The notes beneath the pieces are model-generated. The model ran no database searches, was not told the origin of the DNA, and saw only the letters and a program-made list of their open reading frames with translations. 64,000 nt of DNA from positions 343,094,089 to 343,158,088 of the forward strand of contig OZ024743.1 in NCBI GenBank assembly GCA_964016885.1. Direction: 5' to 3'. The stretch comes from Eledone cirrhosa. Taxonomy: Eukaryota; Mollusca; Cephalopoda; Octopoda; Eledonidae. How positions within the stretch are numbered: position 1 is the stretch's first letter; every line of letters starts with the position of its first letter. The position numbers were made by a program, and so were the translations under genes. Below, piece by piece: positions 716 through 63,574 of this stretch.

Positions 716-2200
716 GCGTTCGGTCATCAGCCAGTTACACAGCGTCCCGCCATTGTCTGTTTATCGCTCGCAGGTCCCTCTCAACTGTCTGGCGCCAGTT
801 CATTTTGGGTCGCCCTCTCCGTCTGCTTCCCTGCGGGCTCCATTTAAGTACTTGGTTCGCCAGTCTCTCCGAGGGAAGTCTCAAAGCGTGTCCAAACCAG
901 CCCAGGCGTCGCTTGCAGATGGTAGAAGAGACTAGCTGCTGGTTGGTGCGGTTCCTGACTTCCTTGTTTGTTACATGGTCACTCCATTTAATCCCCAGGA
1001 TCTTTCGCAGATATCTGGAATCGAATGCATCCAACTTCTTCTCTTGGCTGGTCTTAAGGTGCCATGTTTCACTTCCGTACAAGAGTTTGGACAGCACGTT
1101 GCTGTTGTAGAATCTCATCTTTGTTTTGGGGGTAAACTTCCTGCTCTTCCAGATCTTGTCAAGCTGGTTAAATACTGAAGCCTTTCCCATTCTACATTGC
1201 AGTTCACTGTCCTTGGTGCCCTCATTGTTAATGGGGCTTCCTAGGTAGGTGAAGTTGTCCACTATCTCCACCTCCCCCTGTTCAATGAAGACACTGGTTG
1301 GTGGTGGGTGTGTCCCAGATAACATGCTTTTGGTCTTCTTGGCACTGATATTGAGACCTAAGCTTCCTGCTTCGACATTGATATTGTTCACAATGATTTG
1401 CAGGTCAGCTGTACTCTCTGTAAGTGCAGCAATATCGTCCGCAAAGTCCAGGTCAGACAACTTTTGCTCTCCCACCCAAGATATACCCTGGTCTTTAGAC
1501 GCTCTTCTTAGTACCCAGTCAATGGTTATAGCAAAGATAATTGGAGAGAGCGAGCAACCTTGATCAGTAACCACCACAAACCAGTCACTGTAACCATCCT
1601 CTGTCCGTTGGAGTTTGCGTAAATCTGTTTGATTGCCGAAATGACTTTCTGGGGCAGACCATACTCATGCATGATGCTCCAGAGCGACGGTCGATGAATG
1701 CTATCGAATACTTTGGAGAAATCGATGAAGCTGATGGCGAGGGGCCTCTGGAATTCGTTGTACCTCTCAATGATGCGGCGTAGCGTAAAGATCTGCTCTG
1801 CACAGGAACGTTTTGGTCGGAACCCTGCCTGTTGTTCTCGCAGTTCCCGGTCTACCATGCCACGTATGCGGTTCAGGATCACCAGACAATAGACCTTCCC
1901 TGGTATGGAGAAAAGTGTCACTCCCCTCCAGTTGTCACAATCGGCAAGGTTGCCCTTCTTGGGGATACAGACAACCGCTCCGTTTCTCCAATCTTCTGGG
2001 ACTTCACCCGTGTTCCACACAAGATTACATAAGTGGCCCATCCACTTGACCATGCTTTCGCCTCCTGACTTCAGCAGTTCAGCAGAAATGCCATCCATAC
2101 CTGGTGACTTGTTATTCTTAAGGGTTTTGATGGCCATGCAGACTTCCTTCTCGGTGGGGTCATCAGTATTGATAGGTAACAAACTAGGTTCTTAGGTAGT
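660..2200 (-). pseudogene. Non-LTR (LINE) reverse transcriptase, 5'-truncated and frameshifted
   Basis: Two overlapping minus-strand frames (2182-1526 and 1577-735) make one reverse transcriptase broken by a frameshift near 1540-1575. N-terminal fingers: KNNKSPGMDGISAELLK, then IPKKGN..CDNWRGVTL. Motif A: FIDFSKVFDSIHR, aspartates present. Motif B: QGCSLSPIIFAI. Motif C: DFADDIAAL, giving the catalytic ADD. The C-terminal end has the LINE-type GSETW, LGWFGHALRLP and RRGRPKMNW motifs. The endonuclease domain is missing, as expected of 5' truncation. I place it near the RTE-like or related groups without certainty. It sits between the two halves of a mariner transposase, so it apparently inserted into that older element. 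Confidence 0.85.
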
Positions 2201-6605: not shown

Positions 6606-6613
6606 TATAAAAG
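6606..6613 (+). promoter_or_regulatory. TATA box of chitin-binding gene A
   Basis: The octamer TATAAAAG lies 131 bp before the gene A start codon. A transcription start about 30 bp downstream (near 6636) would give a 5' leader of about 100 nt. Predicted from sequence only. Confidence 0.6.
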
Positions 6614-6736
6614 CGCCTTGCTTTTCACAGAGTTTCGTCAGAGCCACTTGAGTCACGACGGTTCTTCTCAAATTTATTATATAATTTGTCTTTCATTTCT
6701 TTCTACAAAGTTTTCAACAAAATCCACACTTGCAAT

Positions 6737-7013
6737 ATGTACAAGTATCTCGCAATACTTGCTCTCGTAGCAATAGTAGCATTGGGATACTCAGAGGCTA
6801 ACATATGCCAAAGTTACAAATCCAGCACTCTTGCAGTATACGTAAGGGACCAGCACAATTGCAGTGCCTATGATATTTGTTTCGGTGGTAGATCCTTGGG
6901 CAAAGTAGCTTGTCCAAGTGAGCTAGTCTTCTCCATTAATTTGAAGGTATGCGTCAGAAAAGGCCAGGAAAACGATGACTGCAACACAACTGAGACTCTT
7001 GGAGGTATTTATG
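6737..7013 (+). CDS. Secreted chitin-binding protein A, exon 1 (signal peptide + CBM14 domain 1)
   Basis: First coding exon of a predicted 156-aa secreted protein. Residues 1-21 (MYKYLAILALVAIVALGYSE) form a signal peptide. Six cysteines at residues 24, 42, 48, 59, 72 and 82 have the spacing of a CBM14 / peritrophin-A domain, which binds chitin outside the cell through three disulfides. The methionine chosen directly precedes the hydrophobic stretch and follows a TATA box at 6606. An upstream in-frame methionine (6686) lies in the presumed leader. The exon is 277 nt and ends before a strong donor (gtaagt) in phase 1. Exon 2 at 12757 completes the split codon as Asp. In cephalopods, CBM14 proteins occur in beak and other chitinous structures. 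That role here is inference. Confidence 0.88.
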
Positions 7014-8142
7014 GTAAGTCAATACTGATTGAACATCAATTTTTATTATCATCCTTAATACTACTATTAATAATAATACTATATAATCCATTATTTTATG
7101 TACGGAATAAGGAAAATTTGGTTTCTTCAGCAAATTTTAAAAAAGCTGGTATATCTGTGTTCAATGTACGCTTAATAGCGGTTTTGTTTCTTTATGTCCC
7201 GAAAGTTATCAAACATATATAGTGTATATGTGACATGGACAAAAATGCTATATACTTATTATAATATAAATAATTATCAATCAATATTTTTTATCTTTTC
7301 AGTATTACTACTACTTATGTTTGCTTTCATGATAAGGGTTGGCTCAAATGTATTAACCCGTACTATGACTTTTTAGTTATTTTGGTTTGGTTCCTCAATT
7401 ATTCCGAGTTAAAACTTTGCCAGGTTTAACTTTTCCATAATTTCAGAAATTAATAAGTTCCAGTAATATATTTGATACCATTCAGTAAACCACAATAGAC
7501 CACTATTCAGTTGACTACTTTTCGTGTCATTACGATAGTCTCTTGTACTTTAATGAAACAAGCCATTACGTATTGAACTATTTCACATTCTTTTTTTGGT
7601 TTCGTATGGAGATGCCATATACCTAATGCTTTACTGAATTTGATCTCTTTTTGCTGTTATGGTTGTATTTTTGTTAAATTATTATTGGTTTAGTCTGTAG
7701 AAATAACTATGGCCATGGCTTTTACAGTCTAAAGATCGGTGAGATGAATACGATCAACTATTAAACAGTGGCATGTCAACAGAGGGATAGGCTCCGACAG
7801 GCTTAAAATGTCCAAGAAACGCCGTATGTCAATACGGTGCCCCTACGGCTCTATCGGGAGTTACGGGACCATACATACATGTCAACAGCAGCAAGAAAAA
7901 TTACTGAGAAACGACGGGGCATAACGGTTAGTACAATGGACAGAATATGGTTGCCGAGAGGGGAGGGGATACCTGAGTATAACAAAACGAGCCAGTACAG
8001 AGGAGCAAAAGGGCAGATTGAGTAGACCAAAGGTTATCAGCCGTCCAGAGATCAAATCTCGCCAACGCCAATGAATTTTTAACAATGTTATTCAGTACTT
8101 TATTTTTTTTTTTTTTTTGTGCCAGAAAAAGAAACTAATATC

Positions 8143-16452: not shown

Positions 16453-16598
16453 ATTAGTTCAAATCCCGCCGAGGTTAGCTTTGCCTTTCATCCTTAGGGG
16501 GTCGATAAAATAAAGTACCAGTAACGTACTGGGGGTCGATTTAATTGACTTTCCCCTCCCCAAATTACTGGCCTTGTGTCTATACTAGAAATTATTAT
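16453..16598 (+). mobile_element. tRNA-derived SINE, 5'-truncated, long-tail subfamily
   Basis: Starts at the B box (gttcaaatcccgccgagg), continues through ggtcgataaaataaagtacc, then carries the extra block gatttaattgactttcccct before actggccttgtg. This block is absent from the other subfamily. Confidence 0.88.
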
Positions 16599-16683: not shown

Positions 16684-17604
16684 ACAGTTGGCCCAGGAGT
16701 GGAAACTGATTAAGCGAAGAAGAACCTAGGCCAACCTAACCATCCAGGGCGAAGCAAAAGCAGCAACGCAAAGGAGGACTTTGCATTATATATGTATTTC
16801 CTTGTTTTCGGGGTGCGAGGTATGCACCAGAACTAAATGTTTCCAGCTTTTTTTTTTTATCAGACCTGTTCCTGAGCAAAGAGCCAGCAGAAGACAAAAC
16901 TCTATCAGGAATCAACCAACACTAACTACCTTTTGACTTCAATCATACCTTTTCTTATACAATATTATATAATAAAATGTTTTACTGATACTATATGTGT
17001 TGTTTCTGAAATTTCTATGTATTCCACAGTTTGTACAAAGTGATTTGTGTTTATTCTGTGTTTTTATGTCCTCAAGTGATAAATACACCATCACTTGTTG
17101 AAACGGAAAGAGCTCAACCGTCCGGCCCAGACTCTTTCTAGTCTCAGCAAACCAACCAATTATCAATGTCATTCATTCACGAATAAATTTAGGTATCCAC
17201 CACGTTAGAGCGAAAACAAATTGTTTTTAATTTTCAACAAAGTCGGCCGTAAAATCGCAGGTATGTAAATTTGGTTAATCAGCCGATGTATGCCTTTTAT
17301 AATACTATGTATTCTCAGAAGTTCCAGCAGGTAGCAGTGACTAGAGAATATACAGTCTTGATAAGAAGCAATAACTCCGAAACAATTGTCGACTGTTTTC
17401 TCTCTGCTACCGCTGGAACAAAAGGATGACGTCAGTCATCTAGAAAACACAAGTGTCATTGTGAGGCTGTTTGCTTGCAAATGAACCGAATATTAATAAT
17501 ATTATTATAATATTATTATTATTCATTCATGAATACATATATACGTACATATGTATATATATATATATAATATAAGATCAAAAGATGGTTAAAAGAGTTC
17601 CATG

Positions 17605-18622: not shown

Positions 18623-19183
18623 TTAGCTGTATACTTTATGGAAAGTTCTATGGAATTTATGCAAGCAGAGCGAAAATAAATCCGTACGTCTATTTATTAT
18701 AGAATTAAAATTAGAGATAATGGTAAATTTCTCGGCTAGGTAGAGATTACATGTTCTGGATAGGGAAGAATTCCGGTAAGGAAAGGCGTTGCAAACCTTC
18801 CTCCAAGAGATGTTATAGTTAATATTTTTGTCTTTTAAGCACCATATGAGTTCCGAGTGTGCCGTGTTAGTTCTTTTAAGTTGGTATTTAAAAGACGAAT
18901 TGTGATTATAAAATCTTGCTTTAAAGGAAGTGGAAGTGGAACCAAAATAGGTAAAAGAATTAGTACCAGTTATAACCCTACATTCATACACTAAGTTTTT
19001 ATCACGACATTGGTTATTAAGAGGACATTTAGTTCTAACAGGGCAATTACAATTACGATTAGAGAAATTACCAGAGTTATTAACAAGTGACCTAGTATTA
19101 TTTGTAAAAGGAATTGGATTGGAGAAGTTATTTACGATAGGAACTATAGTTTCCTGATTTAGATTGGTGTTATGAACATTCAA
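18623..19183 (-). pseudogene. PLE-type protein, GIY-YIG endonuclease part
   Basis: The translation carries a cysteine cluster, NCNCPVRTKCPLNNQC, then NLVYECRV, TYFGSTSTSFKARFYNH and IWCLKDKNINYNISW. The same order (Cys cluster, Y-[IF]-G, K-x-R, W-x-LKD) occurs in the elements at 47.5 and 61.6 kb and matches a GIY-YIG nuclease, which nicks target DNA to prime reverse transcription. The Cys-x-x-Cys-x-x-x-Glu near the end of the siblings is altered here to RTCNLYLAE. The frame extends upstream, without stops, to meet the RT part after a frameshift near 19,450-19,490. Confidence 0.75.
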
Positions 19184-19189
19184 CGTTAC

Positions 19190-20235
19190 GTTTGACGTCG
19201 TATTTAAATTTACTGAATCTAGCCTAGAGTTAACATTGGCGTCGGGTTTACTATTGCTATTATTATGACGCTCAGTGTTGGATGGATATAATTTATTATT
19301 TAATATTTTATTATTATGTTTAGAGATAATGTTAGAGATGTTGGAAGTGGTGGAATAAGAGAATTTGATTGTATGTTTGTTAAAGATCTTACTATAGATA
19401 TGCGAGGGAGGGAAGCATTTATCTAAGGCCCTAAAAAATAGTTTAGGAATATTACTAGTAATAGATAGAGAAAAGGAGCATTATACCAAATCATATTTTT
19501 GTATCTAGATCTTTTGTTTAAGTTATTGGAATGTTCATAACTATCTATTTTACTATAAGTCCTTCGATGGTTGGTTTCTTTACTGTATTTAATTTTATCA
19601 GGATAACCGGCTTTGGAAAGCGCATTATTATAATAATTGGCATTAGCGTCGAAGATAACTTTATTAGAGGATAGATTTGAGATTCTTTTTTCAACATTAC
19701 TGACTATAGCATTTTTAACGTTAGTGGGGTGGTTAGATTTAAAATTAACATAATTTAGATTCTCATTTTCTTTATGGTAAGGGTAATATAGGCCGGTGTC
19801 AAGATTAAGGGATATATCCAGGAAGTTAGCTAGTTTGACGTTGTTATCAAATTCAATTTTAAGGTTATGGTGCTTAAATAGATCAAGTATATTATTCTTA
19901 ATAATATTAAGGTTAACTAAGTTACAGTTTAAGGCAGTAAAAAGAGCATCGTCACAATAAATTCCACCGCGAAGTTGAGGAATTTTCCGATTTAAAGAAT
20001 TCAAAATAAAGATACCAATCAAGTCCGTCAATTGCGCTGAATCGGACGCACCCATTGTGATATCAAAATTGTTGGAAGTATCAGCTCTAGTCCAATATTC
20101 GTTGTTGAATTCCAGGATAGTTTTTCTTGCGGTGAGAATGATGTAAAGTTCATCTGTGGTAATGTTTAAATGCGAAAGATAGAGCGTTGTTGAGGAGTTA
20201 AGGCGAAATAGAAGAATAGTAACTGGCAATGTCAA
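19190..20235 (-). pseudogene. PLE-type reverse transcriptase part, 5'-truncated
   Basis: Reads ..ITMGASDSAQLTDLIGIFIL, then GGIYCDDALFT (catalytic DD of motif C), then LKIEFDNNVKLANFLDISLN, LDTGLYYPYHKEN and SNHPTNVKNAI. It aligns block by block with the 61.7-kb copy (MGASDSAEVTDLIGLFLL, GGFYRDDGL, NYLDVTLNL, GLYYPYRK). Motif C reads YCDD here rather than YRDD. The N-terminal fingers are absent. A frameshift near 19,450-19,490 separates it from the GIY-YIG part. Confidence 0.78.
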
Positions 20236-20249
20236 ACTGAATAAATTTT

Positions 20250-20460
20250 TTGTTTGTTTTTATTATTCAGGTCATATATATATTTTTTTTCTATTATTCA
20301 GGTCATATATATATAGTAGAACACTTGTGGAATATATCCGTAGTAGTAGAGCGCTCAGTCCATGAGAAAAGTTTGGTAAAAGTAGTTCCACAACAATTTG
20401 TATTACCGGAAATGGTGAATTTACTGTTGTGGAACTACTATATATATATATATATATATA
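20250..20460. repeat. Short duplications and hairpin at the PLE 5' side
   Basis: The string attattcaggtcatatatat occurs twice (20258 and 20290 areas). Then agtagttccacaaca (20381-20395) is inverted at 20426-20440 around a 30-bp loop. A (TA)n tract begins at 20440. Confidence 0.7.
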
Positions 20461-46309: not shown

Positions 46310-49300
46310 AACCAGTAAGACCCCGACAGCTGAGCTCAAGCCGTTTCGACGGCTAATTCTGGACTAAATGAACATTTATCCTGGTATTTAAATAGCCGAT
46401 CTTCTCAAGGGGTAATTCCATATATGGTCAAAGTGATTGTCAAAAATCAGTAGTAATTCTGTGGTTGCAAATTAGTAGGGGAGATGGTGGCTAAACCTGC
46501 CAGTAGGAGAAAGAGGGGAGGGGGTGGAGTAGACCCAATCAAGCGTTGGTAGTGCCAGCTACAGCTGGGCATGAGGTCAAAGAAGATACAGGGGAGGGGG
46601 AGGGGGAGGAAGTCGGAACGGTAGGTAGAACAATGGGGGGTAAAAATAGGAAAGAAAAAATACTGAGAGTGAAGAAAAGCAAAAAAGTGTAAAGAAAAAA
46701 TTAAATTCTACGACCTAGGTGTCAGGCTATTGTTAGGCGAGAATAAAATAAAGAAAGAAAGAAAGAAGTAAATAAATAAATAAATAAATAAATAAGGAAA
46801 TAAGTAAAAGAACTAGGTGGGACGAATTAAGCAAGGACCCTTTTAAGAGGTATAAGTACGTAAATGATACGGTGACTGGTCAACAAAAGGGGCCAAAATA
46901 CTAAAGAGACTACCACGAAATAAACAATAAAGGTTTCCATCCCGGGCCAGCAACGACCCAGTGCAGCAAAGTGAACTTGTACGACATAATAATTCTGAGT
47001 CCCGGGAAAAATATATACTAATGCTAACTCTAAAAGATCTAAAACAAGCTACATGAAAGTTCGTACGAAATAAAGGTAGAATACGGAGAAATAAGTTCAG
47101 AATCCACCCCGCCCAGAAGAAAAGCGAAGCAAGAAATACTGAAACGAAAAAATAAGGCATAAGTGCCACTAAGAAATAAAGAGGGCACAGAGAATAGTGG
47201 GAGCGGTCGGAAAAGGGGGGCAAGTATCCGGGGTCTAAGCCAACTGCTATAAAGGGCGGAGTCCGCCAAATCTATCAAAGACTAGGGGAGGGGGGAGTGG
47301 GGGTACTAAGGCTACATGGGGCCAAAGGGCAGCCTCGGGTGGGCGAGAAAAGACGCCGACAAAGGAGAAGAGCTGGGGTAGAAGGACAAAGGAGAGAGGG
47401 GGGAAGGAAATAAAGGATGCGATAAAAGAATACAAAGAAGATCTTACGTCTTCCTTGGCAAGCAGGGGTTACCCATTGCAAAATCGGCAACTGGGGTGTT
47501 AAAGCCCTAGTCTACCCCCCCGGGTCATTATGGGGTTTGAGGGCGAGGTAAGTCCTACGCAATCTATGTTTACAGAGGTGACTACTCCCATCGGGAAACT
47601 ATTCTTTAGGCTCATTGAAAAACACTTCCCATTACAACACCGCTACCACAACATAATTAACAAAAATACCATCAAACTCTCTTACAGCACTACACCAAAC
47701 TTCGCACAAAACATCGTCTCCTCTAACAACAAAAAACTCAACCCCGATGGCAGAAATAACCTAAATAGCAGTGGAGAACCGACCAGGAGGTGTAACTGCC
47801 CGGATAGATCTATTTGCCCACTCGACAATAGATGCAGAGACCGTAATGTGATCTACCAGTGCAACGTGAGGACGGATACCTCCAACAAAGCCTATATAGG
47901 ACTTACCGCATGTGACTTCAAGACCCGGCTATACCAACATAGACATACCTTCCGAAACCCGGCCCGGCGTCACGCCACTACACTTTCGGGCCACATATGG
48001 GACCTCAAGGACAACAACATCACCTATGATCTCACTTGGAGATTACTGTCCAGAGCCAATTCTTACACGGGAGGACGCCGTCCGTGCAATTTATGCTCGG
48101 AGGAAACTTTACAAATGCTGTTTTCGACGGACCAACTCCTAAACAAGAAAGATGAACTGGTTACTGCATGTAAACATAGATTGCGTAGGACTTACCTCGC
48201 CCTCAAACCCCATAATGACCCGGGGGGGTAGACTAGGGCTTTAACACCCCAGTTGCCGATTTTGCAATGGGTAACCCCTGCTTGCCAAGGAAGACGTAAG
48301 ATCTTCTTTGTATTCTTTTATCGCATCCTTTATTTCCTTCCCCCCTCTCTCCTTTGTCCTTCTACCCCAGCTCTTCTCCTTTGTCGGCGTCTTTTCTCGC
48401 CCACCCGAGGCTGCCCTTTGGCCCCATGTAGCCTTAGTACCCCCACTCCCCCCTCCCCTAGTCTTTGATAGATTTGGCGGACTCCGCCCTTTATAGCAGT
48501 TGGCTTAGACCCCGGATACTTGCCCCCCTTTTCCGACCGCTCCCACTATTCTCTGTGCCCTCTTTATTTCTTAGTGGCACTTATGCCTTATTTTTTCGTT
48601 TCAGTATTTCTTGCTTCGCTTTTCTTCTGGGCGGGGTGGATTCTGAACTTATTTCTCCGTATTCTACCTTTATTTCGTACGAACTTTCATGTAGCTTGTT
48701 TTAGATCTTTTAGAGTTAGCATTAGTATATATTTTTCCCGGGACTCAGAATTATTATGTCGTACAAGTTCACTTTGCTGCACTGGGTCGTTGCTGGCCCG
48801 GGATGGAAACCTTTATTGTTTATTTCGTGGTAGTCTCTTTAGTATTTTGGCCCCTTTTGTTGACCAGTCACCGTATCATTTACGTACTTATACCTCTTAA
48901 AAGGGTCCTTGCTTAATTCGTCCCACCTAGTTCTTTTACTTATTTCCTTATTTATTTATTTATTTATTTATTTACTTCTTTCTTTCTTTCTTTATTTTAT
49001 TCTCGCCTAACAATAGCCTGACACCTAGGTCGTAGAATTTAATTTTTTCTTTACACTTTTTTGCTTTTCTTCACTCTCAGTATTTTTTCTTTCCTATTTT
49101 TACCCCCCATTGTTCTACCTACCGTTCCGACTTCCTCCCCCTCCCCCTCCCCTGTATCTTCTTTGACCTCATGCCCAGCTGTAGCTGGCACTACCAACGC
49201 TTGATTGGGTCTACTCCACCCCCTCCCCTCTTTCTCCTACTGGCAGGTTTAGCCACCATCTCCCCTACTAATTTGCAACCACAGAATTACTACTGATTTT

Positions 49301-50069: not shown

Positions 50070-51102
50070 CCTCTATGTAGACTACATTTTTTGTTCTGCC
50101 TTTGGGCGCAAGTATGAATAAGTTCTGCTTGCATCCCACTCTTGAGCATGCGACGTATAATTGGCCGTGTGAGAAGCACGGCTGGGCTAAATGCAGGCCT
50201 GCCGTTCATAGCGTTTGACCTTGGGACTTGTTGATTGACATCGCGAAGCAAAGTTTAACGAGGAATTGAAGTCGGCGCAGAGTACAGGGGCATTCCGTAC
50301 CTGATGGAGTTAATGGTATTCTGGCTATGAAGACGTTTTCTCCAGCGCCGCAGCCCGTGAGAATTGTGGCTTCAATTACATGCGGCAGGAGGTTTCTTAC
50401 CACTAACCGTGTTCCGTTGCAGAGATGTGGTGGTTCCAGGTTCCTCAACAGCATGACTGGATTCCCAACTTTGACACGCAGTTCATGAGATGGCAGTCCA
50501 CAGAGGTCCAAGGAATTGAGGAATTCTGTTGGAAAATCGTCAACCTCATCTTTGTCCACCACTTTGTCCACAGATTTGTAGGTACGGAGGTTTCCAGGAA
50601 TGCGTTGCAGAAGGTCCTCATTGATTTTTGCAACTGAGACATTTTTGGGAGCCAATATGGCTCTATCGCATAGCCAACTCGTGTTTTTGTAGTTGGTCGC
50701 AATATCGGGAAAGACAGAGGCTGTGAGGTCGTCAACAGTGTCGACAACGGTGCCTACTTGCGAGACTGCCATTTCTCCAGCTGCATCTGAAGGTGCAGTG
50801 CCGTCACCAACTGTTAAGAGGTCCTTTGAAGTCGGCTGCTGAGTGGTCGCCGAGCAGTTGGGCTCTCATGTTTGTTGTGAGGGTCAGGATTGTCACTTCC
50901 TGCCACAGGGGAGATGACTTAATGCAAGCCCCACAGTGTCGGCCCTAGTGGCTTTTGGAACAACTGGAAGAGTTTGTCGAAAATCGCCAGACAGCAGTAG
51001 AGGTACTCCTCCCATCGGTCGGTTGCATTCCCTGATGTCTCGTAGGGTTCTGTCTAACGCCTCAAGGGACCCTTTATGGGCCATTGTGCATTCGTCCCAC
51101 AC
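50070..51102 (-). pseudogene. Helitron protein: Pif1-type helicase, C-terminal part
   Basis: Walker B region WDECTMAHKGSLEALDRTLR with PLLLSGDFRQTLPVVPKATR (51102-50893), then VGNPVMLLRNLEPPHLCNGT and CFAMSINKSQGQTL (50772-50206), then after a TGA stop in the same frame HGQLYVACSRVGCKQNLFIL, with the final stop near 50070. These are the conserved C-terminal motifs of Pif1-like Helitron helicases. One frameshift near 50800-50890 and the in-frame stop break it. Confidence 0.85.
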
Positions 51103-52294
51103 AATTAGGTGGCATCTTTTCTTTGTCAGAGTCCTTGGTGATGTTGCAGGTTATTGTGTCGTCTGAAGTCGTGTTGAATGGCAGTTTAAATGCGGAATGA
51201 GCTGTCCTACCTCCGGGCAGCAGAGTTGCGGCAATGCCAGAAGAAGCCACAGCCAGGGCGATTCCTTTCTGCTGTCGCACTTTGGAGAGGAGGAGTTTAT
51301 TGACGAATGTTTTACCAGTTCCTCCTGGGGCGTCCAAAAAGAAGATACCTCCACTGCGTTGACGAATGGAAGTGCAAACTGTGTCATACGCATGCCGTTG
51401 GTCTTGCAACAATTTCGGTTCGTTTTCGTTGATGAACAGTTCGAGGGCGTGGACGTCGTAGGCATTTTCCTGAATTATGCCCCTCGGAAGTTTGTCGGAG
51501 CCCGTTCGCTGAACTTTTGGCAGTCCATAGAATGGAAGGTCATTTCCACCGGCAGTTAGGATTTTGTCCTCGATGTCAATGAGAGCTTTGTTGAAGAATT
51601 CGTCGCTGAGTCGTACGTCGGAATGAGGAAGTAGTAGTTGTCCTTGGTGTATGTAGTCATCGGAAAGGTCCTCTTTGTATTTGTCCCATAAGGATGCAGG
51701 GTCGCTTAACTCGCATGTCTGCAGTAGCACCGCAAAGAGTTGCCGAAGAGTTCGCGCTGAGAGTATTATAGCTTCCTCCACCAATGTCGCATCCCACTGA
51801 GCGCCATCTTCCAGTAGACCCCGTCTAAGGCAGACTGCGCGGAATGAAGTACAAAGCTCTCTGTTGATTGTTTTCAGATCGTCGAAAGATGTCGGTCCTA
51901 CCACGTCATGCAGTAGAAGGCGGAGATAAAAGCATTCCTGTTGGTTAGGATGAATGGTGTACACTCTCCCAAGAGTAGGGGACATTTTAATGTCTGGATG
52001 TCCCTCGATGGGTTGTCCTTTCACCCTTCTTAACCAAATTCTGTTGTCTGTGTTCCATGTGTAGTATGATGACACCTGAGAGTAGAAGATGGTCTTGGCA
52101 AAGGGATCGTTTCGGCATAACTTAAAAAATTCCGTAAGTGTGGTGTCCTTGGGTTCCTCTGCTATCTCAGCAGCGGTGGAGGCGGTGAAGTAGACTCTTT
52201 GACCGTTTTCAAGGTGCACCGCCAACTGTTTGATTGGGGGGGGGGGGGTAGTTATGGTGTATTGCAAAGTGAAAGAATCGCCAGAACGCTTCAT
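51074..52294 (-). pseudogene. Helitron protein: Pif1-type helicase, N-terminal part
   Basis: 406-codon open stretch. It includes LRRVKGQPIEGHPDIKMSPT, NQQECFYLRLLLHDVVGPTS, LPFYGLPKVQR, and the Walker A FLDAPGGTGKTFVNKLLL followed by AVASSGIAATLLPGGRTAHS. It unwinds DNA for rolling-circle transposition. It overlaps the upstream frame (52460-52209) around a run of ten G residues at 52237-52247, which is the probable frameshift site. Confidence 0.9.
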
Positions 52295-52991
52295 TGATGC
52301 TGATGTATCGGCCGACCTGGTATTGAGTTACTTCGTCTCGGTTGTTCTCCATTGTAAGACCAAATGACGCAGCATCGGACCCCTTATTGATATACTTGCA
52401 GACGTACTTTATCGATTTGACGGAGTGGCAGTATTCAACGTTAATGTGGGCGGTAAACAATTTAAGCAGAAGTGGGCAGTAGGGTACAATCCACCGGTTG
52501 TCGACGTGGTGATGTGGTGTTTTCGCAACAATTCCTCCGTCCGCTGGCTCCCTGCAGCGGTATAATGGATAACCGTCGCCACCTGTCCGAGTTTCTCGGA
52601 GGAATGGCTTAGGATACCTCTTGGTTCACCTTCTTTCTTTAATACATGGAGAATTCATGTTGAAACCGTTTCCGCATGGCCCATGAACCATGTGAGCAGT
52701 GACGATGTTGTGGAGTTCTCTGTCCAATTTCGGGTCGGGTATTTCTGCTGAAATGATGCTGTCAATGCTGCTTGCGTTGATTTTCGTTATCAACCAAATG
52801 AGTAGGTGAGCGTGTGGCAGGCCTCTCTTTTGCCACTCAACGGTGTATATGTAGCCCCTAACAGGTCCAAAGGCCTTACCTGATTTTAGGAGTTCAATAA
52901 GTTTTGTCAACTTCAAAGTGAAAGACTCGTGCCGTAAGATCGTGTCTGTCTGACGCCCTTTGTCCGGAGAATAATTCCGCTGTAATTTCAT
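52209..52991 (-). pseudogene. Helitron protein: Rep (HUH/Y2) endonuclease
   Basis: Histidine motif in YIYTVEWQKRGLPHAHLLIW (HAH, 52991-52626), then after a frame break near 52630 RYPKPFLRETRTGGDGYPLY, and the two-tyrosine motif KSIKYVCKYINKGSD (Y-x3-Y, 52460-52209), then VGRYISINEAFWRFF. HUH plus Y2 is the catalytic set that nicks and joins Helitron ends. Both motifs are preserved though the frame is broken. Confidence 0.88.
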
Positions 52992-54096
52992 TCAACTTAG
53001 GGTTGCATGTTGAAGTGATGAAGAGATCCAGTCTGCTGTAGAGACGCACGTACGTCATAGCATCCTGTGTGCGTTCACTCATGTATCGGGGACTCCTAAT
53101 GAAGGTCGACGGAAGGATACAATGTTTTCCTAGGTTCTCGGGATCGACGTCATTCCTTACTCCATCCCGTAAGTGAATGTAGCTGTCCGAACGAAGGCGT
53201 GCTTGATTGTTCCTTATGTAGCACAGCCTTTCAGATTCCATCTTTGCGCACGCGTCTACAGCAAGCTTGTTGAAGAGTACTCTTGCACGGTGGAGTTGGT
53301 TAAAGCAGCATTCGCGGACCATGAATCGGTAGGTGTAGAATTGCATAGAGGAAACAGTTTTGTTGCTGTTGCACAAAGGAATTCCAAAGTGGTATCCGTC
53401 GTAACCGAATGGGAAAAGTAGGGGATATTGCAATGCGTCGTAGGACCTATGCGTCTCGCTGATCCGTTGCAGACTATTGTCCCTACACTGAAGTATGATG
53501 TCCCGCTTGTTGTACTGTTCTCCATGAAGAAGCACAGCTATTTCATTCAACGTGAGAGTGTTAAAACGTCTGGCGTGGGTGCCTGGTGGTTTCTTGTCAG
53601 CGTCGATTATAACAGCAAAATTTGGCAACGGAGCAGCCTCCAATGCGCATTTAAAACTGCGAATGTAGTTGTTGTTTTCGTGCAGCATTCTCTGGAGTTG
53701 CAACAGAATGTTCATGTCTGTGCCAGGCGAAATTGAAGCGCGTCGTTCCGCTTGGTCCAAATAGTCAGTGACAAAGTATAGCTGTAGGAACTGGGGCTGT
53801 CCGTCTGTCGTGGGCAGTAGCGAACCGATTCTGTCGTAAATTTGTCCTTGAACTTTAAAGGTAGGCATGAAGCCGTCCTCGCGTATGATGTTAGCTCCGA
53901 AAGAGGTCATTTGGAAGGCAGCGTTGTATCTCTTGGAACATCGAAGGAAGTGTTCCGACTCCGCTGTGGAACCGGTCAGTAGAGACTTCAAAGGTTGTGG
54001 TGGTTCCTGTAGAGGAGGCAGTTTCACTTTGCCGTCGTCAGAGCAGCACATCCCTGAAGTCTCCCCAGGCCATTTTTTTCCCGACAATATTGGCAA
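52894..54096 (-). pseudogene. Helitron protein: N-terminal helitron-like domain
   Basis: Includes KKWPGETSGMCCSDDGKVKL (zinc-binding Cys pair), PPLQEPPQPLKSLLTG, YNAAFQMTSFGANI, FKVQGQIYDRIGSLLP, LNEIAVLLHGEQ, YDALQYPLLFPFGYDGYHF and LDLFITSTCNPKLNEITAEL. These are signature blocks of the helitron-like N-terminal region. Overlaps the next frame (52991-52626) at its end. Confidence 0.9.
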
Positions 54097-54764
54097 ATGT
54101 CAGACATGGATCCAATCTGAACTGTTGGCATCAGTGCATAGTTTACTGTTGGGTCATAGTGGAAAGCCTTATGAGACCCCTGAGTGCAACTGATCCTCTG
54201 TGTACCTCGTTTAGCACTCCTGCGGAGTGCGTTGGCGTTTAGCCTTTGTAATTGAAGTTGCGCAGTCTCTGATGCGCGAACGGAAGCTGTTGAAGCGGCG
54301 TCCGTACGTTGACGTTTGGAATGCTGCCCTTCGTCCTCGGCAGCACGTGACGCAGCAGTTGAGGCGGCATCTCTTCGTCGTCGACTGTAACGGTGTTCTT
54401 CGTCCTCACCGTCACGTGCCGCAGCGGTGGAGGCCGCATTTTTGCTTCGTCGTCGAGAATGTTGTTCATCAGTTTGCGCTGCACGTGCAACTGCAGTTAC
54501 AAATGCATTTCCGGAAAGGCGGATGCTCCTCTTTTTTTCTGTCTCGGTTGCCCGGATAATTGCATTTCGAGTTGCATTTTGTGACAACCGAGTCAATTTC
54601 TCTACGGACAACTCTGTAGCTCTTCTTCGTTTGACAGCAGAAGCAGCTTTAGTTTGGTGACTAAGTCGTGGTCTTTTTTGGGTGTCTTTATTGTAGCAGG
54701 ACCGAACACGTAAATATTTATGCAGGTAATGGAGCATGAAAGGGGGATCTATGAAAATGTACAT
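54024..54764 (-). pseudogene. Helitron protein: basic N-terminal repeat region
   Basis: 246-codon frame rich in Arg, Ala and Thr. It contains three or four decayed repeats of the type RRRDAASTAASRAAEDEGQH, then SDICQYCREKNGLGRLQGC with a Cys-x2-Cys that should pair with the GMCC in the next frame, so a frameshift lies near 54080. Such basic repeats precede the zinc finger in many Helitron proteins. The start methionine is uncertain. Confidence 0.7.
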
Positions 54765-54792
54765 CTACATATGCATACTGAAATACTAGTGT
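54754..54792. repeat. Inverted copy of part of the ribozyme repeat
   Basis: gtacatctacatatgcatac then tgaaatactagt is the reverse complement of 54994-55027 and of 55462-55495 inside the adjacent tandem repeat, making an inverted junction at the repeat's left edge. Confidence 0.88.
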
Positions 54793-54795
54793 ACT

Positions 54796-55573
54796 ACAAC
54801 GAAACTAGTTCAATATTCCTTGTCTGGCTTTCTGGAGAATAGGGGGAAGGTGTTCCCCCGAAAAACCAGTATGACTCTAAAAACCGGTTTGTCTGTGTGT
54901 TTACATACAGAATAGCTGGGCCGCTCACTGTAAAGCGACCAGTGAAAGACTTGGTACACCTACATATGTATACGTGTGTGTATTCATATACACACTAGTA
55001 TTTCAGTATGCATATGTAGGTGTACATTTTTAACTTAATTGTTTAAGCGTCAGTCATACAAAAGTGAGTTACAAACGAAACGAAATTTAATTTCGTTTCG
55101 TTATTTGTTTTTATCGTCTCCGCTGAACCGGTGCGTACTCACACTCTATGCAAATTAGTCTGCCCACTACTAATTTTCATAGAAAAAGCATATAACGATA
55201 TGTGCTTTTACAATTCTCCAGAAAGGCCGGTAGATAGGTAAATATTGCTGATGAGTTGTAACAACAACGAAACTAGTTCAATATTCCTTGTCTGGCTTTC
55301 TGGAGAATAGGGGGAAGGTGTTCCCCCGAAAAACCAGTATGACTCTAAAAACCGGTTTGTCTGTGTGTTTACATACAGAATAGCTGGGCCGCTCACTGTA
55401 AAGCGACCAGTGAAAGACTTGGTACACCTACATATGTATACGTGTGTGTATTCATATACACACTAGTATTTCAGTATGCATATGTAGATGTACATTTTTA
55501 ACTTAATTGTTTAAGCGTCAGTCATACAAAAGTGAGTTACAAACGAAACGAAATTTAATTTCGTTTCGTTATT

Positions 55574-55579
<6 letters not shown>
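54796..55579 (+). mobile_element. Retrozyme-like tandem repeat, 1.5 copies of a 468-bp unit
   Basis: 54796-55111 and 55264-55579 are almost identical direct repeats (offset 468 bp; one substitution noticed). The unit boundary is a hammerhead ribozyme: the second copy begins inside its stem II/GAAA and the first copy begins at the same point, lacking the CUGAUGA half. Predicted cleavage sites are 468 bp apart (54810/54811 and 55278/55279). No coding capacity. The second copy ends in a (TA)n tract. This matches retrozymes, non-coding elements made of tandem ribozyme-bounded units. Confidence 0.8.
55241..55285 (+). ncRNA. Hammerhead ribozyme, complete core
   Basis: Stem I: aatattg (55241-55247) pairs perfectly with caatatt (55279-55285), 7 bp. 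Core CTGATGA (55248-55254). Stem II: gttgt (55255-55259) with acaac (55264-55268), 5 bp, loop AACA, closed by the required G-C next to the core. GAA (55269-55271), then stem III ACTAGT (55272-55277), self-complementary, so in a single RNA it is minimal and in a dimer forms a longer helix. Cleavage nucleotide U at 55278 in the triplet GUU. This is a type I hammerhead with a very short stem III, the form known from PLE ends and retrozymes. All invariant bases are present. Confidence 0.88.

Positions 55580-55642
<63 letters not shown>
55578..55642. repeat. (TA)n microsatellite
   Basis: TA run at the right edge of the second ribozyme repeat copy. Confidence 0.96.
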
Positions 55643-55651
<9 letters not shown>

Positions 55652-55737: not shown

Positions 55738-55923
55738 GATTGGCAGTATCGGTAGAGGGTCGGACGCCATGCTTTGACGCATAGAGTTACGGCCCTTGCC
55801 ATTCTGATGGCATTCAAATCCCGCCGAGGTTAACTTTGCCTTTCATCCTTACGGGTTCGATAAAATAAAGTACTAGTAATACACTGAGTAATTGCTGGCC
55901 TTGTGCCAAAAGTAGAAACAATT
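55738..55923 (+). mobile_element. tRNA-derived SINE, full length
   Basis: ggattggcagtatcggtaga head, attcaaatcccgccgaggtt B box, gttcgataaaataaagtact body, tggccttgtgccaaaagtag tail and AATTA end. Confidence 0.95.
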
Positions 55924-60338: not shown

Positions 60339-60456
60339 CCGCGTATAGATCGTACTATCCGTTAGGGTATAATGTGGGGCTGTATATATATTTATATATA
60401 TATACAGCCCCACATTATACCCTAACGGATAGTACGATCTATACGCGGATATTTTA
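60331..60456. repeat. 126-bp palindrome made from the PLE gene end
   Basis: 60331-60393 and 60394-60456 are reverse complements about a TA-rich centre (sum 120787). The right arm (from 60404) equals the last nine codons, stop and following bases of the PLE frame at 62999-63056. The left arm is the same in inverse orientation. Confidence 0.92.
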
Positions 60457-61604
60457 CGTCTTGATGTGGTAGCTTAGTATATGTTATGTTTATATCATTA
60501 CTTATTTGTATAGGTTGTATATATTACCTGTATGTTTTGTGAAGGTACATATACTTTCTCGTACGTATATTTGATTGCATATGTTATGGCGTATATTTTA
60601 TATATTCTGGTACATATGCTTTTGCGTCTGTGTGATTATGCGGGTTCGTACGTATGTATGGTGTGAGTATATGTGTACTTCGTGTTTTGGTTGACGTACG
60701 TCTCCGAAAATATGTGTATTTACGTGTAGGTATGTGTGTGCGCTTGTTATATACGTATTTATTTATTTATATACGTTTATTTAATTATTTGTATACACGC
60801 GCACACACACGTATTTATATGTGCGTATATTTGTATACCTACGGCGAGTTTTTCGCGTATGCTTGTGTATGTACGTATATGGATGCGTGTATGTATTTAT
60901 TTAATTTCAATTATCTCTATATTTTATTTACTTTATTCTTAACTCTGAAGCGTTTCCTAATTCGGTTTCCTAGTTAGAATTTTAGTCTACGACTTCAGCT
61001 ATACCATTTACGTGGTTTTGTCTTTGCGTGCAATTGTTCTCTATGCTCCACATATGACGTAATATCTTCGTTTTTTCCGTTCATTGCCAGAGAACGTCTC
61101 TGTGAACCACCTAATAGAATATTAGTCTACGACTTCTTTTATACCATAAACGTGGTTTTGTCTTTGCGTGTAATTGTTTTTCACCGCTCCAAATAATTGT
61201 TTCTACTTTTGGCACAAGGCCAGCAATTACCCAATGCATTACTGGTACTTTATTCTATCGACCCCGGAAGGATGAAAGGCAAAGTTAACCTCGGCGGGAT
61301 TTGAACTCAGATCATACAGGGAGGTAACTCTATGCTTCAAAGCATGGCATCCGATCCTCTACCGATACTGCCAATCCACCGCCTTATAATGACGTATTAT
61401 ATTCGTTTTTTCCCGTTCTTTGCCAGGGAACGTTTCCACGAACCAAAGTATCGTCTTCCTGTCTTCCTCCGGTTGCAACGTTTTTTGAAATATTCACTTC
61501 TGCGTTCACAGATTGAATTTGTTAGTTTCAGAAGATCCCGTTATGGGTGAAAGCAGCCATTCTTTGCTTAAACTTTTATCTGTTATTTTAATAAATATTT
61601 GCTC
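60404..61604 (+). repeat. Upstream end repeat (pseudo-LTR) of the PLE, with a SINE inserted
   Basis: 60404-60510 matches 62999-63105, and 61418-61600 matches 63112-63285, so the segment is a direct upstream copy of the sequence that follows the PLE gene. It starts inside the last codons of the gene. It holds an internal tandem pair (agtctacgacttc.. gtggttttgtctttgcgtg at about 60983 and 61126), the second interrupted by a SINE. The downstream copy lacks the middle of about 0.9 kb. Confidence 0.87.
61195..61383 (-). mobile_element. tRNA-derived SINE inserted in the PLE end repeat
   Basis: Antisense full-length copy, aattgtttctacttttggca to ctaccgatactgccaatcca. It splits the second internal tandem unit of the pseudo-LTR, so it came later than that duplication. 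Confidence 0.94.
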
Positions 61605-61683
61605 TACGGTTCTTATATATTTGATATATATTTATCCTTATCGAGCCCTCTTTGGATTTTAGTCTTCAAATTTATTATTATTA

Positions 61684-61710
61684 CTATATATATATATATA
61701 TATATATATT
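61684..61710. repeat. (TA)n at the 5' truncation of the PLE gene
   Basis: Short TA run directly before the first recognisable PLE codons. Confidence 0.9.
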
Positions 61711-62998
61711 TCGCTAAAACACTCACAGGGGTTAAGGATTTCGAAGTTGATGTCATCCTCAATGCCCGTAAGTCGGTGATTAATTTCGACGACTCTATTT
61801 GGATTAAAAAATCCAATAGTACCCCATTCGACGTGAGTATGGGCGCCAGCGATTCTGCGGAGGTTACTGATCTTATCGGCCTTTTCCTTCTTTTCTCTAT
61901 CAAGGACGAATTGCCCAACGCGGGTGGTGGTTTTTACCGTGATGATGGTCTTTTGACCATGACTAAGTGCGGACCTCGTGCTTGCGACAGTTTCAGAAAA
62001 AAACTCACAGCCTTCTTTAAAGGCTTCAACCTCTCTATACAGGTTGAGGCCAATCTCTCGGTCGTTAATTACCTCGACGTTACCCTCAATTTATTGAATG
62101 GGTTGTATTACCCGTATAGAAAGCCGAATGATACGCTTAATTACATAAGTAAGCATTCCAACCATCCTGCCAGCATAACCAAGAACCTGGTAAGAAACGT
62201 TTCGTTGAGGCTTTCCCGTCTATCTACTAACGAGCATATTTTCAACGACCATTCCACTTATTACAATGAAGCTCTTGCTCGGAGTGTATTTGTCGATAAG
62301 GTAGCATATACAGAGTACGAAAATAGACCTAGAAGAAATAGATCCCGTCGCATTTGTTGGTATAACCCACCATATAATATGGAGGTGGCCACACCATTAG
62401 CTAAGATCTTTCTTTCCCTTATTACGAAGCATTTTCCCCCTACACATAAATATAGTAAAATTTTTAATAGAAATACTATTAAAATTTCTTACTCTACAAC
62501 TCCTAACCTTGCACATAACATCACAGCTTCAAATTTAGCTAAACTACCTAGCCGTAGGAACACGTGCAACCCTGTTAGTACTAACTGTAATTGTAGGAAT
62601 CGGGTTGATTGCCCCCTATCCGGGAAATGCCTCTCTAGTAACATTGTCTACAAATGTAAGGTTGAAACACCCATGTCCCGTAGGGCCTACATAGGGTTAA
62701 CCGCCAATAGATTCAAGCAGCGTCTTTACATGCATACCCATTCTTTTCGTTACCCTCTAAGAAGGAATATGACGTCCCTTTCAGCTTATATCTGGAGTCT
62801 AAAAGACAACCACACCCAATATAAGTTACACTGGGAGATCCTAGCTAGTGCTAGATCGTATAACGGAAATAAAAGACCATGTGACCTCTGCGCCGCTGAG
62901 GCCCCGGAAATACTCTACGCCACAGACCACATCTTAAACAAAAAATCTGAGGCAATTTCGGCTTGTAAACATAAATTGCACAAAACTTTCCTGTATTA

Positions 62999-63026
<28 letters not shown>
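61711..63026 (+). CDS. PLE-type protein: reverse transcriptase (partial) + GIY-YIG endonuclease
   Basis: An uninterrupted frame of about 438 codons after the TA tract. The nominal start at 61599 is in repeat sequence and is not real. Order: FEVDVILNARKSVINFDDSI, FDVSMGASDSAEVTDLIGLF, motif C GGFYRDDGLLTM (YRDD), VVNYLDVTLNLLNGLYYPYR, SNHPASITKNLV, RICWYNPPYN, LITKHFPPTHKYSKIFNRNT, SYSTTPNLAHNI, cysteine cluster NCNCRNRVDCPLSGKC, GIY-YIG core AYIGLTANRFKQRLYMHTHS, IWSLKDNHTQYKLHWEIL, CDLCAAEAPEIL and SACKHKLHKTFL. The RT copies RNA and the nuclease nicks the target. The RT N-terminal part, including motif A upstream, is missing, so it is not autonomous although the remaining frame is open. Confidence 0.85.

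Positions 63027-63574
<548 letters not shown>

Follow-up and report, generated by a model that had tools for sequence, protein, structure and literature searches.

A retrozyme family with a type I hammerhead, inserted head-to-head in TA repeats, and its likeness to a Penelope-like element of the same genome

The window analysed here is a DNA stretch of 64,000 nucleotides, toward the right end of which lies a 468-bp repeat with a hammerhead ribozyme at the junction of its units. We numbered the unit from the first base after the cleavage site (c1) to the last base before it (c468). In these terms, the window copy consists, from left to right, of a 39-bp inverted piece (c182-220), three filler bases, c454-468, a whole unit, c1-301, and a (TA)n run. 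The inverted piece (54754-54792, minus strand) forms a short left arm, 100% complementary to 55460-55498 and placed head-to-head with the long right arm on the plus strand. The first part of that right arm, c454-468 plus the whole unit c1-468 (54796-55278), is defined by the 468-bp repeat spacing and by near-identical units elsewhere in the genome; its second part, c1-301 (55279-55579), is defined by the repeat match and closes at what we call a c304-type end (c300-305), whose joint with (TA)n recurs genome-wide. The (TA)n microsatellite, the putative target, which was given no strand, follows at 55580-55643 (end approximate) and forms the right end of the copy, while the left end lies at c220 without (TA)n; the rest of the left arm was sought beyond the neighbouring Helitron and was not found there.

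An earlier note on this DNA, made from the sequence alone, had described a 468-bp unit present 1.5 times. The 468-bp repeat holds, at about 1.7 rather than 1.5 copies, with a first unit at 54793-55260 and a partial second at 55261-55579 (319 bp, 99.4% identical), the homology beginning at 54793 by repeat search and, strictly, at 54796 by eye. The inverted piece reported in that note is also present, although 39 rather than 38 nt long, and its idea that this piece and the (TA)n end mark how the copy was joined agrees with the anatomy of 40 loci (see below), where they correspond to a short second arm and the target repeat.

The unit has a G+C content of 0.38, which is under the 45-50% limit for animal non-LTR retrozymes, no stop-free stretch of at least 110 codons overlaps 54796-55579, and the predicted fold of the circle (-169.5 versus -99.7, sd 9.2, in 100 first-order simulations; z -7.6) suggests a strongly self-paired molecule. 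Within the whole unit, on the plus strand, lie the positions of the c230 and c235 ends (55040-55045), where other loci end at c226-237, and the sequence leading up to the c304 end (55099-55114); both are putative start sites of reverse transcription. Just before the c304 end is a palindrome (55074-55102, plus strand; self-inverted match of 28/29 bases), with a second copy at 55542-55570. The octamer ATGCAAAT (c338-345; 55148-55155, plus strand) falls in a block conserved with a second family, B, as judged from one aligned copy each of families A and B. We take this octamer to be a possible promoter element, presumably of the kind known from snRNA promoters, including that of a newt satellite. 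Retrozymes seem to be without promoters, as far as PMC7761336 describes them.

To the left of the insert lies a Helitron with broken reading frames (50209-54099, minus strand), which the earlier note had named and which matches to Pfam Helitron_like_N, PIF1, and Pif1_2B in three frames confirm; a further frame beside it (54027-54764), reaching the insert, has no Pfam match. Reverse-transcriptase pieces (RVT_1, LINE type by eye) occur at 738-2191 (minus strand), and two further fragments, at 18626-20259 (minus strand) and 47503-48228 (plus strand), resemble Penelope-like elements by eye and are without a Pfam match. An open frame at 6611-7219 (plus strand) has a signal-peptide-like start and a cysteine pattern that resembles, by eye, chitin-binding domains, and the SINE tails at 16501-16580 and 55820-55910 are presumably those of cephalopod Ceph-SINEs; it is from these tails that the host is presumed to be a cephalopod.

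The type I hammerhead core occupies 55241-55285 (plus strand) with a predicted cut between 55278 and 55279, and the coordinates and elements first claimed for it proved correct. Stem I (AATATTG/CAATATT, 7 bp) is followed by CTGATGA, stem II (GTTGT/ACAAC, 5 bp, loop AACA) is followed by GAA, and after these come ACTAGT and the cleavage site GTT at 55278/55279; the ribozyme is of type I because its open helix is stem I. As had been proposed, it spans the junction of the two units (55260/55261), and the first copy likewise starts inside a ribozyme, 54796-54817 (plus strand) being the 3' half of a hammerhead alone at the start of the right arm (weak match of the R1 model at 54782-54817, E 0.31). 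Past an internal loop, stem I continues into an outer helix, also found in folds, in which the 13 bases of 55213-55225 are complementary to 55296-55308 (both plus strand), and family B pairs at the same place with different letters.

Stem III had been described as palindromic, and ACTAGT is indeed present, but within one molecule it can fold into a stem III of no more than 2 bp, closed by a 2-nt loop, or of 1 bp if the loop is the tetraloop CUAG, and a long palindromic stem would form only between two ribozymes. An axolotl ribozyme with a weak palindromic stem III cleaves poorly alone and well as a dimer in the account of PMC7229834, and because stem III is weak here too, we expect, by analogy with that palindromic form, that hammerheads of the window type act as dimers. 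The window copy contains one complete ribozyme, and therefore its transcript would be cut at one place only and this copy alone would release no unit-length RNA. The suggestion that transcripts of the locus would release, or partly release, a 468-nt RNA thus keeps its predicted cut site but not the release, as a single complete ribozyme cannot free a whole unit.

Among the Rfam families, for which the earlier note had named the lack of a hammerhead hit above threshold as a refutation, the best evidence is a significant match to HH9 (38.6 bits; E 3.1e-6 in the whole 64-kb window and E 4.8e-8 in a 1-kb stretch alone) that nevertheless lies under the curated threshold, with no family reaching its gathering score in the window (HH9 cut-off 52). 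A descriptor scan for all core bases and stems found 55241-55285 as the sole site on both strands of the window, and 0 matches in 300 first-order simulations of 64 kb, one strand of each being scanned. The R1 model, of which the window copy is itself a part, matches the site with 69.7 bits. Stem II changes in a compensatory manner from GTTGT/ACAAC to GATGT/ACATC in a sister array of 27 cores and is AGCT/AGCT-based in family B, and stem I changes likewise. In an alignment of 12 sequences, of which 10 are distinct, both sides differed in 18 cells versus 7.1 after shuffling (0/500 as high) and the covariation score was 0.379 versus 0.145 (0/500 as high; slid partners at most 0.162), whereas two of the five measures were unremarkable, i.e., pairs changed on both sides (7/14 versus 5.1; 38/500 as high) and further pair types (8 versus 8.4; 370/500 as high), and relatedness of the sequences inflates the other measures. 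The underlying ribozyme alignment (A2) excludes one locus that lost stem I at its truncation (L052) and the truncated first ribozyme of another (L049), and keeps just one of the further family-A copies. Finally, base changes are half as frequent in the 45-nt core (29/4,964 bases) as elsewhere in the unit (655/54,760 bases). On sequence grounds, the hammerhead motif and its family are well established at this locus.

The source genome (2,984,417,623 bases in 1,582 contigs) was searched with the unit, which gave 190 matches, with the best 40 of 800 candidates scored. About 150 listed matches of the 190 were grouped into 40 loci, including that of the window, and these were then fetched; they are biased to young copies with whole units because they were taken from the best-scoring matches. 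The exact core motif occurs 5,168 times in the genome (2,691 forward and 2,477 reverse, versus 1 and 0 for the reversed control). The 40 loci hold 105 exact cores, in 99 of which stems I and II pair throughout. We also counted 103 junctions from one unit to the next in these loci. Units are 466-468 bp long and tandem arrays are common, with many units and no coding sequence between them, and the tandem copies with intact cores that the earlier note proposed to look for are thus found genome-wide. The sister array of 27 cores mentioned above lies at C1:5738792-5750934, with a spacing of mostly 466, among 100 core places listed on one contig. Family B, known from one locus, has a unit of about 427 bp that is 63% identical over 329 positions and also sits at (TA)n. 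The window itself holds the decayed hammerhead of a family-B-like relict retrozyme (17351-17397, plus strand; R1 21.5 bits, E 0.0071 in 77,855 bases), whose flank (17465-17572), ending in a TA run, matches with 66% identity over 112 positions (E 2e-8 in a search of a 2.4-kb stretch), partly in TA-rich sequence. This relict (17170-17572, limits approximate) appears to be of a third kind, with two core changes (TTGATAA). Exact pattern searches of viral and prokaryote collections gave 0 matches. Overall, we read the locus as one member of a large, young, multi-copy family of animal non-LTR retrozymes.

Having placed the copy in a family, we can describe how its members sit in the genome. Two-armed head-to-head insertions account for 28 of the 40 loci, including the window's, and one-armed insertions for the other 12. 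In 18 of the 28, one end falls at c300-305 and the other at c226-237; seven combine c300-305 with an end elsewhere, three combine c226-237 with an end elsewhere, and two ends of the same class were found in none of the 28 (no 304/304). A TA run of at least 8 abuts 31 of 32 c304-type ends and 21 of 24 c226-237 ends, while of the 12 ends elsewhere one is at such a run, seven are not, and four are at gaps, some of the odd ends being assembly gaps (N runs). Exact joint patterns, which are a less biased sample than the 40 nearest loci, gave 957 joints of c304 with (TA)n and 225 of c235 with (TA)n genome-wide (controls 0). On contig C1 up to 265.4 Mb, there are 100 c304 ends and 18 c235 ends; nine of these 18 c235 ends stand head-to-head with a c304 end, and no two of the 100 c304 ends lie within 15 kb of each other. 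One c235/c235 pair was seen among the c235+(TA)n places listed. At the centre of the 28 two-armed loci, the arms meet with anything from 40 shared bases to 53 filler bases, as cut by BLAST. Because (TA)n stands on both sides of the insertions, any target-site duplication, which in animal non-LTR retrozymes should exceed 4 bp where there is one, would be hidden. The arms, the fixed ends, and the (TA)n flanks of the family can be read off its copies directly. At one locus (L015), both (TA)n flanks continue into mirror-image sequence, so that the target repeat was possibly embedded in a palindromic element.

Near the right border of the window is a 5'-truncated Penelope-like element (61708-63279, plus strand) with an ORF at 61713-63023 and (TA)n before it, which stops at a point called end 1 (63279), followed by short TA and then (TG)n. 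A second copy, from the same element or a closely related one, is present as its 3' part (60399-61687, plus strand; 82-94% identical in pieces, with a gap at 61198-61376) and ends at a second point, end 2, followed by (TA)n. The family of the frame 61713-63023 shows 94-97% identity over 95 other scored matches in its own genome (73,526 candidates at first look), and many of its copies have 713-aa open frames. One such copy (L060) has the ORF and direct terminal repeats. The stop points of this copy and of another (L063) differ by 88 nt, and each abuts (TA)n. The protein alignment (A1) contains the motifs FDI..FYPSI, YRDDG, and YIGLT..FK.R and four invariant cysteines. The protein has no credible match in Pfam, NCBIfam, PHROGs, or PDB sequences, and a search with its C-terminal region gave no match, the longer query having 2,231 homologues; we call the ORF probably Penelope-like from its motifs and the direct-repeat layout.

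The ends of this element are joined to (TA)n 7,061 times (end 1) and 1,468 times (end 2) genome-wide (controls 0). On contig C1 up to 64.0 Mb, 100 end 1 and 23 end 2 joints form, within a limit of 6 kb, five head-to-head end 1/end 2 pairs, where 0.10 were expected and none of 5,000 random placements gave more than 3, as well as one end 1/end 1 and no end 2/end 2 head-to-head pair; two unlike and three end 1 tail-to-tail pairs and three parallel pairs are also found there. The retrozyme and the Penelope-like family of the window have like scars, i.e., two alternative ends at (TA)n that are paired head-to-head, and a comparison of their start sites gave no clear common sequence. At L009:1441-1500, a retrozyme is inserted in (TA)n directly after a Penelope-like end 1, with both elements using the same repeat.

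A Penelope-like protein is reported, in purified form, to cleave both strands and extend them, and to begin within the RNA, at two adjacent sites (PMC11167929). In the same report, the element's own hammerhead was unneeded for in vitro insertion and unprocessed RNA was the main substrate, and thus ribozyme-made circles would not be required by such an enzyme. For head-to-head Penelope copies, self-priming was the preferred explanation in PMC3846280, where tails on one of two inverted copies had already been described. For the mobilisation of animal retrozymes, LINEs or Penelope-like elements have been proposed, the latter as a strong candidate (PMC7229834).

We consider it probable, given the scars above, that hammerhead-made circles serve as templates for Penelope-type reverse transcription primed on both strands of a cut TA repeat, in a cycle of which we infer the transcription, the cleavage, the circular template, and the identity of the enzyme. 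A multi-unit copy would be transcribed, paired hammerheads would cut the RNA into 468-nt units, and a host ligase would close these units into circles. A Penelope-type reverse transcriptase/endonuclease would then cut a (TA)n microsatellite, and both DNA ends would prime: copying of the RNA would start at c304 from one of them and near c230 or c235 from the other. Each polymerase would copy the template, often for more than one round, and the two cDNA ends would be joined in the middle, which would leave head-to-head arms flanked by (TA)n. The window copy would be an insertion whose left arm reached only 39 bp.

It is possible, though in our view unlikely, that a LINE of the RTE or Dong/R4 type, acting by twin priming, moves the retrozyme in place of a Penelope-like enzyme. 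Inversions at the 5' end are also a product of twin priming, and the RVT_1 fragments at 738-2191 are of LINE type as judged by eye. RTE and Dong LINEs have been reported in octopus, with a sign of recent insertion and a microsatellite 3' end for RTE and no recent-insertion sign for Dong in the octopus genomes discussed in PMC9115989, and recent Dong-R4 insertions are listed for Octopus vulgaris (PMC13282606). However, the retrozyme's two fixed internal ends, both on (TA)n and mostly in unlike pairs, have their counterpart in the Penelope-like family of the window, the sole family compared, and the scars also fit the Penelope-like biochemistry reported in PMC11167929. Quite improbable, in turn, is that the unit is no separate retrozyme and represents the pseudo-LTR of a Penelope-like element, or an internally deleted Penelope-like element, even though Penelope-like pseudo-LTRs are described with type I hammerheads, partial tandems, and inverted copies of which one has a tail (PMC3846280, PMC11167929, PMC7761336). 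Long arrays of the unit are free of intervening coding sequence, no hammerhead occurs in the one Penelope-like family looked at (L060-L063), and the matches of this family to the unit are weak and in TA/CA-rich stretches (best E 0.016 for family A and 2e-9 for family B, the latter in L060 reversed, 605-729).

The circular template of the cycle that we favour bears on how alike the units of a locus should be. Among 168 units, the difference was 1.18% within the same arm, 1.54% between opposite arms, and 2.27% between loci for matches with at least 92% identity, >100 bits, and >120 columns; a looser match set with stray short matches gave means of 1.65%, 2.33%, and 2.95%, in the same order. The within-locus difference of 0.0142 compares with a minimum of 0.0193 in 2,000 label permutations, and likeness of units within a locus is accordingly a direct reading of the alignments, although a uniform donor array, membership of one subfamily, or exchange after insertion could produce it as well. 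A circle template predicts two classes of variants, those common to all units and single ones. In the two-armed loci, 44 variants were common to all units, 203 were single, 19 occurred within one arm, and 12 crossed arms without being in all units; 20 of the 31 variants in the last two classes come from two loci (L045 and L046), and these classes show, at the level of variants, that templates are sometimes mixed or units exchanged later. Among the 31 distinct locus-wide variants, 17 turned up at one locus and no other, and many of the shared ones are subfamily marks. RNA editing of the template was considered and set aside: A>G is the commonest change (9/31 distinct locus-wide variants) but makes up 3/17 of the variants seen in one locus, and we therefore claim no A>G excess.

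Arms longer than 468 nt were found in 28 of 36 cases in the 18 loci with c300-305 and c226-237 ends, a sample in which the choice of loci favours long arms, and multi-unit arms with intact ribozymes would come more easily from a circle than from an uncut linear multimer. One arm of a single locus (L045:2199-5942) contains a four-unit higher-order repeat (a b c d a b c d'), which fits better with a later duplication of the retrozyme array; a dimeric or tetrameric circle behind this pattern was rejected, as the other arm is without those variants. The idea that unequal exchange spread and homogenised the family as ordinary satellite DNA, with the ribozyme as a passenger, finds some footing in this repeat and in the sister array of 27 cores, but is very improbable given the hundreds of dispersed copies with fixed ends at (TA)n and a ribozyme less variable than the rest of the unit, both of which retroposition predicts.

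Within the Penelope-type cycle, we tentatively raise a more specific possibility, which we would not yet call probable, that each insertion represents one circular RNA read by two polymerases at once. A circle would offer c304 and c230/235 once each, and the two DNA ends would have to take different sites; since each start site would be present once per circle, unlike arms would pair and no 304/304 pair would arise. If so, each polymerase may circle the RNA several times, and retrozymes would be parasites of the Penelope-like two-site start, imitated with unrelated sequence. More generally, the insertion signature appears to link this retrozyme family to Penelope-type integration, with the mechanism constrained by sequence, and hundreds of young copies with precise scars make the entry of retrozymes into a genome, the circle template, and the enzyme directly testable. 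The same genome offers a single candidate protein and a single target repeat, with two start sites and one circle junction predicted.

Retrozymes of this kind are known, and the insertion signature, which we found in no source, is likely the new part. Our search of the openly accessible literature, supplements aside, showed no cephalopod retrozyme and no two-armed (TA)n anatomy among the papers listed; its part on microsatellites and head-to-head copies was weak, covering 10 of 2,297 matches. The words octopus, cephalopod, and squid are absent from the main text of PMC7229834, as is "hammerhead" from that of the Octopus vulgaris repeat annotation (PMC13282606).

As described in PMC7229834, the animal non-LTR retrozymes of coral, mussel, and axolotl resemble the window family in their type I hammerhead and low G+C, their tandem non-coding repeats (from dimers to long arrays), a strongly self-paired unit (predicted here), and the presence of Penelope-like elements in the same genome (here by motif). 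The unit of 466-468 bp lies just above the range of about 150-450 bp of these retrozymes, into which family B falls with about 427 bp, and compares with circRNAs of about 170-400 nt in that source, whose discussion allows 150 to >1,000 nt. Unlike the retrozymes presented there, the window family combines an amphibian-like, palindromic weak stem III with a presumed mollusc host, and its two-armed head-to-head (TA)n insertions with two fixed ends go beyond what that text describes. The newt and axolotl satellite retrozymes (HHR_Amex1, PMC7229834) share the one-pair stem III with a palindromic tetraloop (here A-CUAG-U) and differ in sequence, unit length, and host, with the dimer preference of the window family being predicted by analogy. 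Plant LTR retrozymes, in the descriptions of PMC4918200 and PMC7761336, are likewise non-coding repeats bounded by hammerheads, but these are of type III, not the type I form found here, and come with LTRs, a primer-binding site, and 4-bp target duplications. Penelope-like elements (PMC11167929, PMC3846280) encode a reverse transcriptase/endonuclease, whereas the 468-bp unit is without a long frame or a GIY-YIG frame between pseudo-LTRs; as far as those sources go, they share with the window family the inverted partial copies, an optional tail that amounts to two alternative ends, AT-rich targets, and, in some, type I hammerheads.
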